From: Demequina capsici
GTDB lineage: Bacteria; Actinomycetota; Actinomycetes; Actinomycetales; Demequinaceae
Assembly: GCF_032102965.1 (NCBI RefSeq)
Contig: NZ_CP134880.1
Location: 1,984,001-2,048,000, forward strand
Direction of reading: 5' to 3'
Length of the DNA stretch: 64,000 nucleotides
Shown one piece after another: positions 7,431 through 14,640 of the stretch (the stretch's first letter is position 1; each line of letters opens with the position of its first letter). The position numbers were made by a program, and so were the translations under genes. The notes below the pieces were generated by a model. That model was given only the letters and a program-made list of their open reading frames with translations. It searched no databases and was not told the origin of the DNA.

Positions 7431-10319
7431 TCAGAGCGCCCTGCGCGCCTCACGCCAGGTGAGCACGCGGTCGAGCGCAGCGAGGAACCGGTCAACGGCG
7501 GCCTCGTCGATGGTCATGGGCGGCTTGATCTTGAGCACGTTCTTGTGGTCGCCCGTGGGTTGGACGATCACGCCCTGGTCGAGCAGCGCGTCGCAGATCT
7601 CGCGCGCGCCGGCAGGGTCGGGTGCGTCGGGGCCGCCCGCGACGACCTCGACTCCCAGGTACAGGCCCATGCCGTGGACGGCTCCGAGCGCGGGGTGGGC
7701 ACCTGCGAGCGCGCGCAGCCCGTCCGCCAGCCGGTCGCCGACGACGCGCGCGTTGTCCTGCAGACCGTCCGACTCCAGGATGTCGAGCACGGCGGTTCCG
7801 ACCACGCAGCTCACGGGGCTGCCGCCGGCGGACGAGAAGAACGACCCTTCGACGGCGAACGCGTCGGCGACCTCGCGGGAGGTGATGACGGCTCCGAGCG
7901 GATGCCCGTTGCCCATCGCCTTCGCGACAGTGATCACGTCAGGCACCGCTCCCTGCTGCTCGAAGCCCCAGAAGTGGTGCCCCAGGCGGCCGTAGCTGAC
8001 CTGGACCTCGTCGGAGATGCACAGCCCTCCCCGGGCGCGGATCGCGGCCCAGACTCCCGCCAGGTAGCCGTCGGGAAGCGCGATGCCTCCCCCGTTGCCG
8101 AACAGCGGCTCGGCGATGAAGCCTGCGAGCGACACGCCTGCGTCGTCCAGGGCTGCGATGCGATCAAGGGCGTCCGGAAGGTATCGGTGCGCGTCGTCGC
8201 CGCGATGCGTGCCGCGATAGGTGTTGGGCGCGTCCAGCAGGTGCACCCATGACGGACGGGTGTCGAGAGCGCGAGGGTTGTCGCCCAGCGACGTGGAGAC
8301 GGCGTCGGCGCCGACGGTCCAGCCGTGATACGCCTCGGTGAGGGCGAGCACGTCCTCCCGCCCGGTGACGGCGCGCACGATGCGGAGCGCAAGGTCCACC
8401 GCCTCGGAGCCGGAGTTGACGAGCATGACGGTGTCGAGCCCGTCGGGCGCGAGCGAGGCCAACCGCTCGGACAGCTCCACGATGGCGCCGTAATGGAAGC
8501 GGGAGTTGGTGTTGAGCCTTCGCATCTGCGCGTCGACGGCGTGGGCCAGGCGCGGTTCTCCGTGGCCCAGGATCGCGACGTTGTTGACCATGTCCAGGTA
8601 GGCGCGACCGTCGACGTCGATCAGGTGATGCCGCCAGCCGCGCTCGATCCGGGGCGGCTGCGCGTAGTAGTGCTCCTGGACCCGTGCGACCACGTCGTCA
8701 CGTCGCCGCGCGAGCCTGTCGGCGTCGGCGTCCTGCACGGCCACGGAGGTCCGCCCGATCAGGGACGACGGGTCGGGGCAGAGCTCGCGCCAGGCCCGCT
8801 CCTGCGCGGGGCGGGCGAGCGGCGGCGGCGTGAGGGATGCGCAGGCCGCCAGCTGGACGTGCAGGACGGCCATGTCGTCGGGACGGACGGCGACGCCGAG
8901 CTCCTGACCCGCAACGACCCGCTCCCCGTGCGTGACCGACGCGGAAGTGCCGTGCACCAGGACGGCGCCGCCCTCGTCGAATGCGAGCGTAAGCACCTCG
9001 CCGACGGCGACGGTGCCCGCGGCGGGAGCGACGACGCGGGTGCCGACCGGGACAGCGAGGTCGATGCCGAGCGCCAGCGAGCGCGGCGGATCGCCCGCGG
9101 CAGCCGACGCCGTGAGGCGTCGCTCACCGTAGGCCGTCACGGCGGAGCCGGAGGCGCGCGCGAGCGCCAGCAGGGCCTGGACGGACGCGTCGGGATCGGT
9201 CCAGGAGCCTGAGTCGTGGACCTGCGACGTCACCGTGAGGTCCAGGCAGGGGGCGTCGGCGAGCCCGTCGACCATGAGCCCGAGGACGGACGGCAGGGCG
9301 GGCACGCGACCGAGCGCGTGCCGGAGCAACGCTTCGGCCTCGTCCAGCTCGAGCTCGAGCGCACGCGCGAGGATGCGCCTCTCGAGCGGCATGCGCGCGG
9401 CCGCGTACTCGTTGCTGGGATCGGCCGCGAGCACCCGACCCGCGGAGGCGACGAGCACCGCTGCGCGCATCAGGATCGCGGGCCACAGCGCCGCGATCTC
9501 GGGCTCGGTCAGCGGCAGCCGCGCATCGAAGGCGGCGATCGCGTCGAACGCGAGCGCGAGCGCGTCACCATCGTGCTGGAGGAGGGACGATGCGGTCACC
9601 GCGGCCTCTGCCGCGACCCACCCGAGTCCTAGATCACCGAAGTCGATGACGCCGACGATCGCGCCGGAGGCGTCGCACAGCAGGTTGTCGCCGGTGAGGT
9701 CCCCGTGGGTCGCCTGTACTCGAAGCGTGTCCCGCAACGGGCCGAGGCGCTCCTCTGCCAGGCGCATGGCCAGGTCCACCTGGGTCACGACGTCGGGGTC
9801 GAGGTGAAGGCGCGACGCGGCGACGATCCGACCTGCCTCGCGCAGGTCCCAGTCGCCGCCGCCCAGCAGGCCGGGATGCGTGAAGCCGGTGAGCGCGGCG
9901 GTGAGAGCGCCGGCGGCAGCGCCGAGGCGATCGGCGGCTCCTGCGGGAGGCCTCGCCGCCTCCGTGGGGCTGCCGCCAGGGACGAAGTCGAGCAGGCGCA
10001 CCAGGCGCGTGCCGTCCGACCACTCGACGGCGCCGATCGGGTCACCCTGGACTGTCGGGTGCGTGCGCGGGACCACGAGCCCGAGGCCGGCCGCCGTCAG
10101 GTGATCGGCGGCGGCCACCTGCGCCTCGAGCGCGTCGCGTGAGATCCCTGGATGGGTGACCTTCAGCACGAGCGGCACGCTGTCGGCCATCTCGATGCGT
10201 GCGTTGAGGTCCTCGTTCGAGCCGAGCAGACGCACCGAGGCCACGTCGATGCCGAACATGTCTCGCGCGATCCGTGCGGCGGTCGCCTCGTTCCAGGCGG
10301 CGAAGTGAGTGTCACCCAT
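7431..10319 (-). CDS. Fusion: aminoglycoside-phosphotransferase-like kinase, M23-like segment and class III PLP aminotransferase
   Basis: About 962 residues. The N-terminal third is a choline/aminoglycoside-kinase fold (H-G-D-L-T-G-D-N-L-L and V-I-D-F-G-D motifs). A middle part (about residues 400-510) resembles a peptidase M23/lipoyl-like beta barrel (V-G-T-R-V-V-A-P-A-A-G-T-V) without obvious zinc ligands in the usual order. The C-terminal 430 residues are a class III aminotransferase fold with the PLP lysine in V-A-K-A-M-G-N-G-H-P. Fusions of this kind are related to phospholyases such as ethanolamine-phosphate phospholyase, so a kinase that phosphorylates an amino alcohol and a lyase that eliminates phosphate is a reasonable inference. 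The ATG at 10319 is chosen because an upstream frame to 10358 starts inside a terminator hairpin. Confidence 0.85.
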   Translation of the reverse strand: MGDTHFAAWNEATAARIARDMFGIDVASVRLLGSNEDLNARIEMADSVPLVLKVTHPGISRDALEAQVAAADHLTAAGLGLVVPRTHPTVQGDPIGAVEWSDGTRLVRLLDFVPGGSPTEAARPPAGAADRLGAAAGALTAALTGFTHPGLLGGGDWDLREAGRIVAASRLHLDPDVVTQVDLAMRLAEERLGPLRDTLRVQATHGDLTGDNLLCDASGAIVGVIDFGDLGLGWVAAEAAVTASSLLQHDGDALALAFDAIAAFDARLPLTEPEIAALWPAILMRAAVLVASAGRVLAADPSNEYAAARMPLERRILARALELELDEAEALLRHALGRVPALPSVLGLMVDGLADAPCLDLTVTSQVHDSGSWTDPDASVQALLALARASGSAVTAYGERRLTASAAAGDPPRSLALGIDLAVPVGTRVVAPAAGTVAVGEVLTLAFDEGGAVLVHGTSASVTHGERVVAGQELGVAVRPDDMAVLHVQLAACASLTPPPLARPAQERAWRELCPDPSSLIGRTSVAVQDADADRLARRRDDVVARVQEHYYAQPPRIERGWRHHLIDVDGRAYLDMVNNVAILGHGEPRLAHAVDAQMRRLNTNSRFHYGAIVELSERLASLAPDGLDTVMLVNSGSEAVDLALRIVRAVTGREDVLALTEAYHGWTVGADAVSTSLGDNPRALDTRPSWVHLLDAPNTYRGTHRGDDAHRYLPDALDRIAALDDAGVSLAGFIAEPLFGNGGGIALPDGYLAGVWAAIRARGGLCISDEVQVSYGRLGHHFWGFEQQGAVPDVITVAKAMGNGHPLGAVITSREVADAFAVEGSFFSSAGGSPVSCVVGTAVLDILESDGLQDNARVVGDRLADGLRALAGAHPALGAVHGMGLYLGVEVVAGGPDAPDPAGAREICDALLDQGVIVQPTGDHKNVLKIKPPMTIDEAAVDRFLAALDRVLTWREARRAL

Positions 10320-10341
10320 GGTGCACGCATCGTCCCACGCA

Positions 10342-10374
10342 GAAGGGCCTCGCACCATGGGTGCAAGGCCCTTC
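10342..10374 (-). terminator. Hairpin between aldo/keto reductase and the fusion gene
   Basis: GAAGGGCCT and AGGCCCTTC plus inner GCACC/GGTGC form a 14-bp stem with one mismatch and a 3-base loop, 16 bases after the reductase stop. No T-run follows. Confidence 0.7.
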
Positions 10375-11929: not shown

Positions 11930-12430
11930 TCAGATGTCGAAGCTGAGCGTCTCGCGGCGCTTGTCGAAGTACACGCTGAACTGCTCGCACTGGTCACGCA
12001 CCGCGTCGATCGCCTCGCGTCCCCGCTGCAGCTGCCCGCGCTGGACGGCCCACCGCTGGATCATGCCCAGCTGCGTCTCGAGGACCGACGTGACGGTCAC
12101 CTTCGTACCGCCGGGAGCGTCCTCGAGCTCCCACGTCGAGGTGGAGGTCACGCGCGGGTTCAACGCGCGGCGAACGAGGCGACGCGGCCGATCGGCCTCG
12201 ACCGTCTCCTCGGTCAGCATCAGGTCCGTGCGACCCACCTTCAGCATGGTCCGGGTGCGACCGCCGACGTCGCCGATCCCCAGGTCGTCCTCGAGCAGCT
12301 CGATCTCCTGGATGTCGTCCCGCGAGTCGGCGAGCCCCTTCGGGTCGGTCAGCAGGTTCCACAGCTCCAGCGCGCTCGCGCGCACGAAGCCCTCGGCGGC
12401 GTGGGTCTCGATGTACGGAACGGCGGCCAC
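11930..12430 (-). CDS. SRPBCC (START/polyketide cyclase-like) family protein
   Basis: 166 residues from a GTG at 12430, chosen for the AAGGAG site five bases upstream; a longer frame to 12592 would run across the cysteine leader peptide region. The pattern E-x-x-x-x-x-S-A-L-E-L-W-N-L-L-T-D-P near residues 17-32, alternating beta strands and the long C-terminal helix (Q-R-G-R-E-A-I-D-A-V-R) fit the helix-grip fold that binds hydrophobic ligands. No catalytic residue can be assigned. It is divergent from the cys operon. Confidence 0.75.
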   Translation of the reverse strand: MAAVPYIETHAAEGFVRASALELWNLLTDPKGLADSRDDIQEIELLEDDLGIGDVGGRTRTMLKVGRTDLMLTEETVEADRPRRLVRRALNPRVTSTSTWELEDAPGGTKVTVTSVLETQLGMIQRWAVQRGQLQRGREAIDAVRDQCEQFSVYFDKRRETLSFDI

Positions 12431-12502
12431 GGGCACTCCTTCTTCGCTGACGGACCAGCCCAGCCTACGGGGCGTCGGTCCTGGTCCCGCACCTGCGATT
12501 GC

Positions 12503-12532
12503 TTGCCCCGCGCTCGTGGACAGCGCTAACCT
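12503..12532 (+). promoter_or_regulatory. Probable promoter of the cys leader-cysK-cysE transcript
   Basis: TTGCCC (12503-12508), an 18-bp spacer and TAACCT (12527-12532), 27 bases before the leader peptide start. Confidence 0.45.
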
Positions 12533-12559
12533 GGCTCCAGCGCACAGGAAGGAGGCGAG

Positions 12560-12658
12560 ATGAGCAACGCGAGCCGCATCACCACGATGCACGCTCCTGC
12601 CCTCGCCACCCGCGTCTTCTGCATGCCCTGCATGCGCACCGCCTGCTGCTGTCTGTAG
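12560..12658 (+). CDS. Cysteine-rich leader peptide (attenuator) of the cysK-cysE operon
   Basis: A 32-codon frame from ATG 12560 with an excellent GGAAGGAGG site. The peptide starts MSNASRITTMHAPAL and its second half carries five cysteines, the last three consecutive (A-C-C-C-L-stop). It ends 150 bases before cysK. Poly-cysteine leader ORFs that slow ribosomes when charged tRNA-Cys is scarce and so control sulfur genes are known from mycobacteria. Position, codon content and the downstream hairpins give the same reading here: translation stalls at the Cys run under cysteine shortage and changes folding of the leader RNA. The peptide itself probably has no cellular role. Confidence 0.8.
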   Translation: MSNASRITTMHAPALATRVFCMPCMRTACCCL

Positions 12659-12675
12659 AGCGCTGGCGACCGACC

Positions 12676-12747
12676 CGCACCCCTGACCCGGGTGCGCACC
12701 GCCTGCCAGTGCTCGCCCCCGGCATCCCTGCCATGCTGAGGAATGCC
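12676..12747 (+). promoter_or_regulatory. Leader hairpins between cys leader peptide and cysK
   Basis: CGCACCC (12676-12682) pairs with GGGTGCG (12690-12696). The same GGTGCGC strand can instead pair with GCGCACC at 12634-12640 inside the leader ORF, just before the Cys codons, so ribosome position could choose the pairing. A second hairpin uses GGCAT/ATGCC at 12721-12747. A 14-base direct repeat (12633-12646 and 12693-12706) underlies the alternative pairing. Confidence 0.5.
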
Positions 12748-12808
12748 ATCACGACGCGTTCGCGTTACCCACCCCGGAAACCCACTCAGGTAAGGAAACC
12801 CACTGCTC

Positions 12809-13744
12809 ATGGCACGCATCTACGACGACGCGACGAAGCTCATCGGCAACACCCCGCTCGTGCGGATCAACAAGCTCACGGAGGGCGTCGGCGCCACCGT
12901 GCTCGGCAAGCTCGAGTTCTACAACCCTGCCAACTCCGTCAAGGACCGTCTGGGCGTCGCGATCGTCGACGCCGCTGAGGCGTCGGGCGAGCTGAAGCCC
13001 GGCGGCACCATCGTGGAGGCGACGTCCGGCAACACGGGAATCGCGCTCGCCATGGTCGGTGCGGCCCGCGGCTACAACGTGGTGATCACGATGCCGGAGA
13101 CGATGTCGAAGGAGCGCCGCGCGCTGCTTCGCGCGTTCGGCGCCGAGCTGATCCTGACCCCCGGCTCGGAGGGCATGCAGGGCGCGCTCGACGCGGCCGA
13201 CAAGGTGATCGCGGAGCGCCCCGGCTCGATCCTTGCCAAGCAGTTCGCGAACGAGGCGAACCCGGAGATCCACCGCAGGACCACCGCGGAGGAGATCTGG
13301 AACGACACCGACGGCGAGGTGGACATCATCGTCGCCGGCATCGGCACCGGCGGCACGATCACCGGCGTGGGCGAGGTCCTGAAGGCCCGCAAGCCGTCGG
13401 TCCAGATCATCGCCGTGGAGCCTGCCGAGTCCCCCATCCTCAACGGCGGTCAGGCCGGCCCCCACAAGATCCAGGGCATCGGCCCCAACTTCATCCCGCC
13501 GATCCTGAACACCGAGATCTATGACGAGGTCTTCGACGTGGACGCCGAGACGGCGATCGCGACGTCGCGCGCCGCAGCCCGACAGGAGGGCCTGCTCGTC
13601 GGCATCTCCTCCGGTGCCGCCCTGCACGCCGCCATCGAGGTGGGCAAGCGGCCGGAGAACGCAGGCAAGACGATCGTCGCGATCATCCCCTCGTTCGGTG
13701 AGCGCTACCTGTCCACGGTCCTCTACGCGGACCTGATGGACTGA
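12809..13744 (+). CDS. cysK: Cysteine synthase A (O-acetylserine sulfhydrylase)
   Basis: 311 residues, full CysK length. The PLP lysine is K45 in N-P-A-N-S-V-K-D-R, the phosphate/substrate loop T-S-G-N-T-G lies at 72-77, and the PLP phosphate-binding loop is G-I-G-T-G-G-T. It joins sulfide to O-acetylserine to give cysteine and acetate in the cytoplasm. It is the first structural gene behind the cysteine leader peptide and is followed 41 bases later by serine acetyltransferase, so the operon holds both committed steps. A weak AAGG stretch lies about a dozen bases before the ATG, consistent with control of translation by the leader. Confidence 0.97.
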
Positions 13745-13784: not shown

Positions 13785-14417
13785 ATGACGGACAGGCCCC
13801 GAGGCCTCGCCCTCATGGCGGAGGATGTCCGCTCCGCCAAGGACCGCGACCCCGCCGCGCCCTCTTCGTTCGTCATCTGGGTGTCCTACCAGGGCGTTCA
13901 CGCCGTCTGGTATCACCGTGTGGCGCACCGTTGGTGGACCGCAGGCCACCGGTCGGCGGCCCGTCTGCTCTCTCAGTTCGCTCGCAGGCGCACCGGGATC
14001 GAGATCCACCCGGGCGCCCAGCTGGGACGCCGCGTCTTCATCGATCACGGGATGGGCGTCGTGATCGGTGAGACGGCCGTGGTCGGCGACGACGTGCTGA
14101 TGTTCAACAACATCAACCTGGGCGGCACGTCCATGAGCCACGGCAAGCGGCACCCCACCGTCGGCGACCGCGTGGTGATCGGAGCCGGCGCCCGCATCCT
14201 CGGCCCGGTCTACATCGGCTCGGACTCACGGATCGGGGCGAACGCCGTGGTCGTGAAGGACGTGCCGAACGGCGCCACGGCCGTGGGCATCCCGGCGAAG
14301 GTGCGCGAGCACCCCAAGCCGACGGAGGCGCACACGGCCGCGTCGTGCGTCGACCAGGGCGAATCCCATGTCCACCTGGACGACGAGCCGCTCGAACCGG
14401 CGATGTACTACATCTGA
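13785..14417 (+). CDS. cysE: Serine O-acetyltransferase
   Basis: 210 residues with an AAGGAG site. The left-handed beta-helix is visible as hexapeptide repeats (I-H-P-G-A-Q-L-G, V-I-G-A-G-A-R-I-L-G, I-G-A-N-A-V-V) and the active-site region D-H-G-M-G-V-V-I-G-E-T and the following N-I-N-L-G-G-T loop match the short EpsC/CysE type. It acetylates serine with acetyl-CoA to feed CysK next door. The C-terminal tail, normally the site of cysteine feedback and CysK docking, ends in D-E-P-L-E-P-A-M-Y-Y-I; a terminal Ile is what CysK docking requires in characterised complexes. Confidence 0.95.
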   Translation: MTDRPRGLALMAEDVRSAKDRDPAAPSSFVIWVSYQGVHAVWYHRVAHRWWTAGHRSAARLLSQFARRRTGIEIHPGAQLGRRVFIDHGMGVVIGETAVVGDDVLMFNNINLGGTSMSHGKRHPTVGDRVVIGAGARILGPVYIGSDSRIGANAVVVKDVPNGATAVGIPAKVREHPKPTEAHTAASCVDQGESHVHLDDEPLEPAMYYI

Positions 14418-14494: not shown

Positions 14495-14640
14495 AGTCGC
14501 TTTCACGCGAGAGCGCATCGACAGGGGGACTGTTTCCCATGCCGGTCGCGAACCGCGGGAATGACGACGACAGACCTGGCGCGAACCCCTCAGCCGCGCT
14601 AAGGAGAACGGGCCCCCGCTTCGGCGGGGGCCCGTTGCTT
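14495..14640 (+). ncRNA. Candidate small structured RNA or orphan riboswitch-like leader
   Basis: A TATGCT -10-like element (14483-14488) is followed by about 110 bases without a convincing gene and then a strong terminator. The stretch contains CGCTTTCACGCGAGAGCG (a hairpin), CAGGGGGACTG and GCGAACCCCTCAGC near the 3' end; the last two loosely resemble conserved pieces of c-di-AMP (ydaO) riboswitches, but the fit is incomplete. A secondary-structure model search would decide. It could also be only the trailer of cysE. Confidence 0.25.
14607..14640 (+). terminator. Strong intrinsic terminator
   Basis: AACGGGCCCCCGC and GCGGGGGCCCGTT form a perfect 13-bp stem with a TTCG tetraloop followed by TGCTTTT. 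It ends transcription from cysE or from the candidate small RNA before the convergent dps gene. Confidence 0.9.

Follow-up and report, generated by a model that had tools for sequence, protein, structure and literature searches.

The cysK and cysE genes of the Demequina genome studied here are preceded by a short, cysteine-rich open reading frame (ORF) that always ends in a TGT cysteine codon six bases 5′ of its stop, and a hairpin, which we call P1, begins within the stop codon itself. The codon, the stop and the hairpin are kept in relatives of the same family and in further families of the order; elsewhere the peptide sequence drifts. We conclude that the element is very probably a ribosome-mediated cysteine attenuator and, judged from comparative sequence analysis, that it is not of the classical two-hairpin type and probably not of the leaderless type of mycobacteria. 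The window, that is, the whole stretch of DNA analysed, is 64 kb long and spans positions 1,984,001–2,048,000 of a complete 3.08-Mb genome; the features described are collected in Table 1, in window coordinates.

Table 1. Features of the cysK–cysE leader region and the evidence that defines them.
Feature	Coordinates	Strand	Sequence and evidence
−35-like element of the leader promoter	12503–12508	+	TTGCCC; column (C/G)TTGC(C/T) kept in nearly all Demequina loci
−10-like element	12527–12532	+	TAACCT (TANNNT type), spacer 18; kept as CTA(G/A/C)CCT in Demequina loci
SD of leader ORF	12547–12555	+	GGAAGGAGG; strong; purine-rich SD in nearly all Demequina relatives
Cysteine leader ORF	12560–12658	+	32 codons, MSNASRITTMHAPALATRVFCMPCMRTACCCL, stop TAG; Cys-ending ORF in 45/45 Demequinaceae cysK loci
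Last Cys codon, TGT	12650–12652	+	−6 from stop; proposed sensor codon; invariant
TAG stop	12656–12658	+	Invariant; P1 pairing starts at its G; TAGAGC in 98/98 loci, TAG in 45/45 of the unbiased set
P1, stop-codon-fused hairpin	12658–12714	+	Outer stem 12658–12668 with 12704–12714; inner helix 12676–12682 with 12690–12696
C-rich tail of P1	12715–12720	+	GCCCCC (consensus GCCCC), without U-tract; alignment
Gap from P1 to cysK	12715–12808	+	C-rich, G-poor, rut-like; candidate Rho loading region, from composition
P2, small hairpin	12721–12747	+	Present in the majority of Demequina loci; pairs change together, by eye: GCATCG/CGATGC, GTATCG/CGATAC, GAATC/GATTC
SD of cysK	12792–12796	+	AAGGA; 12 nt 5′ of the cysK ATG
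cysK, cysteine synthase A	12809–13744	+	PF00291, E 1.2e-73
cysE, serine O-acetyltransferase	13785–14417	+	PF00132 hexapeptide, E 1.1e-11; SATase_N weak

The cysteine leader and its last cysteine codon

An earlier note on this DNA, made from the sequence alone, had described a 32-codon ORF with a strong ribosome-binding site and the C-terminus ACCCL, and its coordinates and sequence were reproduced. The ORF begins with ATG at 12560 and carries earlier Cys codons, including those at 12620, 12629 and 12644. Such an ending is rare: only two of the 1736 stops in the 64-kb window have at least three Cys among the last five codons, and when a start codon and a Shine–Dalgarno sequence (SD) were also demanded, the leader ORF alone remained. 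A sigma-70 scan returned no consensus promoter; the promoter-like boxes of Table 1 are nevertheless conserved, and a transcript start is predicted at about 12539, giving the leader a 5′ UTR of ∼20 nt. The leader is thus probably not leaderless, because leaderless translation is disfavoured by the SD together with conserved promoter-like boxes ∼28 and ∼50 nt upstream.

Elsewhere in the same genome, a 24-bp exact match to leader codons (window 12566–12589) lies antisense inside an ABC permease gene (L002 1501–1524; G000:C1:822257–822280); it is probably a chance match and was rejected as a second copy of the element. No Cys leader was found at the loci of this genome that carry two PAPS-reductase-family genes. 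Two other features of the window were recorded in passing. Downstream of cysE, at about 14604–14640, GGGCCCCCGC-TTCG-GCGGGGGCCC is a strong hairpin that resembles a terminator; its tail is T-rich. On the minus strand, at 7431–10358, a 975-aa ORF reads as an apparent fusion of phosphotransferase-like kinase, peptidase-like and class III aminotransferase domains.

Conservation was assessed on cysK genes gathered by protein homology alone from 46 genomes of the family (43 of the genus Demequina and three from other Demequinaceae genera), and Cys-ending ORFs were sought upstream of them without any motif. In the resulting set of 45, the window plus 44 relatives in which the cysK start was covered, such an ORF was present 111–206 nt upstream of cysK without exception, bearing out the earlier proposal of a Cys-codon leader ahead of cysK–cysE in this group. 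The two genes adjoin in every relative whose contig is long enough. Almost all of the family loci open the leader with ATG-AGC (Met-Ser) behind a purine-rich SD, the start being uncertain in three (L042, L063 and L066).

The last nine bases of the leader read TGT NNN TAG in 45/45 members of this set, which was collected without the motif. With Cellulomonadaceae and other families added, 96/96 distinct leaders have TGT at −6, hereafter TGT(−6), as their last Cys codon, although the model that found some of the distant members contains these TGT and stop bases, so that the unbiased count is 45/45. The base after TGT(−6) is C in 95 of the 96. At their other Cys positions these leaders use TGC 238 times and TGT 73 times (23% TGT), and two leaders have no Cys besides TGT(−6) within their last 14 codons. 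Readthrough of the TAG stop was considered and rejected, as the distances from TAG to the 3′ arm of P1 are variable and are not multiples of three.

In contrast to its end, the body of the peptide drifts neutrally (pN/pS 0.99; 97 nonsynonymous and 30 synonymous changes in 13 close pairs). A neutral body joined to a fixed TGT NNN TAG end is what is expected of a leader peptide, in which the act of translation is kept and the product is not. The earlier note had proposed asking whether the Cys run and a hairpin are conserved in preference to the rest of the peptide; the Cys codon, the stop and the hairpin are indeed kept, and the peptide body is not.

Hairpin P1, the gap to cysK and their distribution

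P1, which the earlier note had overlooked together with the invariant TGT, surfaced on aligning the interval between leader and cysK. Its consensus is TAG-AGCGCTGGC ... GCCAGYGCTC-GCCCC. The 7-bp hairpin previously described between the stop and cysK is real, but it is the inner helix of this larger structure. P1 folds with a z of −7.1 in the window and a mean z of −3.9 over 98 loci. Its lower pairs are invariant and its upper pairs covary: 67 sequences contain 43 two-sided changes as compared with 9.9 (sd 2.5) after shuffling, with a covariation score of 0.211 against 0.097 (0/500). In the same sequences a 10-pair stem is 91.8% paired, falling to 30–44% when the partner is slid by 1–3 columns. 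Arms that have diverged stay complementary (GAGCGTC/GACGCTC, GAGCATTGA/TCAATGCTC, GAGCGCGGG/CCCGCGCTC and GAGCGCC/GGCGCTC). On this comparative evidence, P1 is a real RNA helix. No Rfam family, T-boxes included, matched window positions 12450–12850 at gathering score, with weak chance matches only, and the same search in 10 relatives returned tRNAs only.

The 3′ strand of the inner helix (12690–12697) had been proposed to pair alternatively with the leader ORF. That pairing is present in the window, where GGTGCGC (12691–12697) can pair with GCGCACC (12634–12640), but it is not conserved (mean z −0.11 over 95 loci). Its source is a 13-base repeat of this species, GCGCACCGCCTGC, and it was rejected as an antiterminator. 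Over the 98 loci neither arm of P1 finds a competing partner, be it within the leader or further 3′ (mean z 0.0 to +0.8); if anything, pairings with the arms appear to be avoided. The mutually exclusive antiterminator pairing of trp/his-type attenuators is absent from the same 98 loci. A scan of 12400–12850 found no T-tailed hairpin terminator. In low-GC relatives the tail of P1 is mixed (CTCTTTTTCTTG in L236, CTCCATACC in L233); in L236, CTCTTTTTCTT can be seen by eye 3′ of P1, and a scan of that locus reports no terminator there. With the pairing not conserved, the arms of P1 without a competitor and a T-tailed terminator missing, the description of the region as an attenuator complete by layout is not supported.

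The RNA of the gap between P1 and cysK is 42% C and 25% G. Its excess of C over G averages 0.174 over 98 loci, against 0.037 in 38 control regions 5′ of cysK, taken from families that lack the element (p 3e-15); these control regions may not all be transcribed. This profile would suit Rho loading, as support rather than proof; C-rich, G-poor untranslated RNA downstream of a leader is what Rho-dependent leaders present. In Demequina the gap shows no fold beyond shuffles (mean z −0.13). P2 is followed there by a conserved GCGTT.

An exact-pattern scan of GTDB genomes gave 72 stretches, nearly all from Demequina and Cellulomonas with cysK downstream and with leaders ending in CCCL, CCRCR or CCRCL; the small remainder lacks cysK and looks like chance. 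A covariance model added further members within the order. Among its 40 loci, 30 have cysK 116–250 nt downstream, almost all with an in-frame Cys-ending leader, while 10 weak matches without cysK were rejected as false (L221, L222, L224, L226–L228, L231, L232, L235 and L238). Families in which the element precedes cysK are Demequinaceae, Cellulomonadaceae and a few more of the same order. When cysK upstream regions were sampled across the order, Cys leaders with the TGTC..TAG junction were also seen in family f3 and were not found in most of the other families sampled. In family f3 (L253, L255 and L256) TGTC at −6 is kept and the hairpin arms are changed, as is the stop of L253 (TGA).

A class-wide search with strict filters yielded no verified case outside the order, its matches lacking cysK downstream except in one genome of the same order (L239). 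One candidate from another order of the class, L247, was rejected as an instance of the element: its positions 1423–1515 encode a leader of the NF042934 type (MLMPVSRTALLVSRLHVDLVRQASALCRCR followed by the stop) that precedes what is probably an aliphatic sulfonate ABC transporter. The end of this leader, TGTCGC-TAG-AGC, is the codon, stop and base junction of Cellulomonas cysK leaders. A different Cys leader (..RFACVCCC, TGA stop), perhaps of independent origin, lies upstream of cysK in a locus of family f20 that has no P1 (L317).

Proposed mechanism and rival readings

The leader is a Cys-rich peptide ahead of cysteine biosynthesis genes, as in attenuators of the trp/his type, and its run of Cys codons lies close to the stop of a short ORF ahead of a cysteine gene, as in the polycysteine leaders of mycobacteria. 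We regard cysteine-responsive control through the leader peptide as highly likely, and P1 as its likely effector. The reading that we favour, and to which we give somewhat better than even odds, is that leader and P1 together form a cis-acting, ribosome-mediated cysteine attenuator of cysK–cysE, with P1 as the OFF structure opened by a ribosome stalled on TGT(−6). The direction of the switch, taken by itself, is evenly poised, and the participation of Rho in a presumed termination step is put forward tentatively.

When Cys-tRNA is short, the ribosome translating the leader would pause at Cys codons, the key one being TGT(−6). With this codon in its A site, the ribosome would cover the mRNA as far as about stop+6, where the invariant base of P1 (GAGCG/CGCTC) lies; ribosomes are known to protect ∼10–12 nt past the A site and to repress stop-proximal terminators (PMC4824070, PMC4833913). 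Closed P1 would be OFF and would keep transcription from reaching cysK, the most likely means being premature termination in the C-rich gap aided by Rho or another factor; factor-assisted termination is favoured because there is no U-tract. The stalled ribosome would hold the base of P1 open and so turn expression ON. In classical attenuators over 20 bp separate the terminator from the leader gene, which avoids direct ribosomal repression (PMC4824070), whereas the zero spacing between stop and hairpin here points to direct occlusion. In folding calculations, blocking the mRNA to stop+6 reduced the mean stability of P1 from −32.0 to −20.2 kcal/mol.

Several points nevertheless weigh against P1 being OFF. 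The helix that remains under the stalled ribosome is still stable (mean −20 kcal/mol), and P1 lacks a U-tract in Demequina, whereas the hairpin after cysE in the window has a T-rich tail. With ribosomes stalled at the earlier Cys codons (12620, 12629 and 12644) P1 would stay closed, so that severe starvation could have the opposite of the required effect. Terminators close to a stop codon are repressed when translation is faster (PMC4824070), which would likewise invert the response if the stall at TGT(−6) did not last longer than RNA polymerase takes to pass. The sequences TGTC and GAGC are also more invariant than simple pairing would need.

The main rival is the mirror image of this model, in which P1 is ON: it would form when ribosomes stall at upstream Cys codons and would protect the transcript or exclude Rho, while a ribosome at the stop would destroy it and expression would fall. 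P1 does stay free when the stall falls at any Cys codon other than the last; with a ribosome on the stop, the RNA is covered to about +12 and the outer stem is lost (a mean of −16.7 kcal/mol remains); and the C-rich gap suits Rho. Yet a stall at −6, the sole universally kept Cys codon, would open P1 at its base, and the freed 3′ arm has no alternative partner (downstream mean z +0.77), so that no OFF structure can be named; we consider this reading unlikely. Translational attenuation as in mycobacteria, with the cysK ribosome-binding site sequestered by leader RNA and freed by the stalled ribosome, would follow the logic of the M. smegmatis polycysteine leaders, as these are cited in PMC13236596 and PMC9031893. 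It strikes us as distinctly improbable, given that pairing of the cysK SD with P1, the one sequestering structure probed, is not enriched (mean z +0.20 over 98 loci) and that the Demequina gap shows no excess of folding over shuffles.

P1 might also be a ribosome-controlled element of RNA processing or stability, which the stalled ribosome would shield from or expose to an RNase, altering the half-life of cysK mRNA. The invariant bases of the lower stem suggest recognition of sequence plus shape and would fit such a role; a nuclease site is not known, and we think this explanation has only a slim chance of being right. That the inverted repeat is instead a DNA operator, with the ORF incidental, might be supposed from the AGCGCT palindrome in each arm, which is nearly invariant in Demequina and Cellulomonas. 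However, divergent species alter both arms jointly and accept G–U pairs, and the position of the arm is fixed relative to the frame and stop of the leader; on the covariation of the arms the operator was rejected, and we give it next to no credence.

Returning to P1 as the OFF structure, a wider picture can be offered as a conjecture. The element may represent a one-hairpin attenuator without antiterminator, in which an obligatory UGU at a fixed distance from a stop-fused hairpin makes the stalled ribosome itself the switch; it would be ancient in several families and would rely on factor-assisted rather than U-tract termination.

Significance and comparison with known systems

If the attenuator reading is true, the range of cysteine-sensing leader peptides grows to include the final steps of cysteine biosynthesis in Demequina, Cellulomonas and their relatives, through an RNA element that is missing from Rfam and whose simple codon–stop–hairpin geometry can be tested base by base. 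It would provide a clean case for asking how attenuation of transcription works in high-GC Actinobacteria when no U-tract terminator is used, and it raises the question of why a single UGU codon stays frozen amid a drifting peptide. No published cysK leader with a stop-fused hairpin was found in the literature searched, which covered only part of the subscription papers.

Mycobacteria reportedly carry polycysteine leaderless short ORFs ahead of sulfur and cysteine genes, said to have been described by Canestrari et al. in 2020 (Mol Microbiol 114:93). The Demequina leader shares with them a Cys-rich short ORF before sulfur or cysteine genes and, on the reading proposed here, sensing by pausing at Cys codons. 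It differs in having an SD, probably a 5′ UTR of ∼20 nt, a single invariant TGT at −6 and a stop-fused hairpin; no conserved hairpins are reported in mycobacterial leaders (Seliverstov 2005, PMC1262725). Outside the mycobacteria, Cys leaders were predicted earlier in other Actinobacteria, on the cys operon of P. acnes and on cbs of B. longum (Seliverstov et al. 2005, PMC1262725). These too have runs of Cys codons near the stop upstream of cysteine genes and no obvious terminator, but they concern other genes and other lineages, and no conserved hairpin was described for them.

The ‘putative leader peptide’ family NF042934 (NCBIfam) is likewise short and Actinobacterial, with some members ahead of sulfur genes, and the NF042934-type leader of L247 ends in CRCR followed by TAGAGC, as do Cellulomonas leaders. 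The leader ORFs of the window and of four relatives, however, gave no match to the NF042934 HMM over the cut-off. A Cys attenuator has also been described on cysS of Rhodobacterales, the uORFC-8-2 motif (PMC8632094). Like the Demequina element, it combines a Cys-codon uORF with RNA structure and has been proposed to act by ribosome-mediated attenuation, but its first stem contains the Cys codons and it ends in a U-run terminator, whereas in Demequina the hairpin follows the stop and there is no U-run. A parallel to the proposed occlusion is of the pyrBI type (PMC4824070), in which the ribosome itself, rather than an antiterminator helix, holds the hairpin open; pyrBI senses UTP through pausing of RNA polymerase, whereas the Demequina element would sense Cys-tRNA through stalling at a codon.
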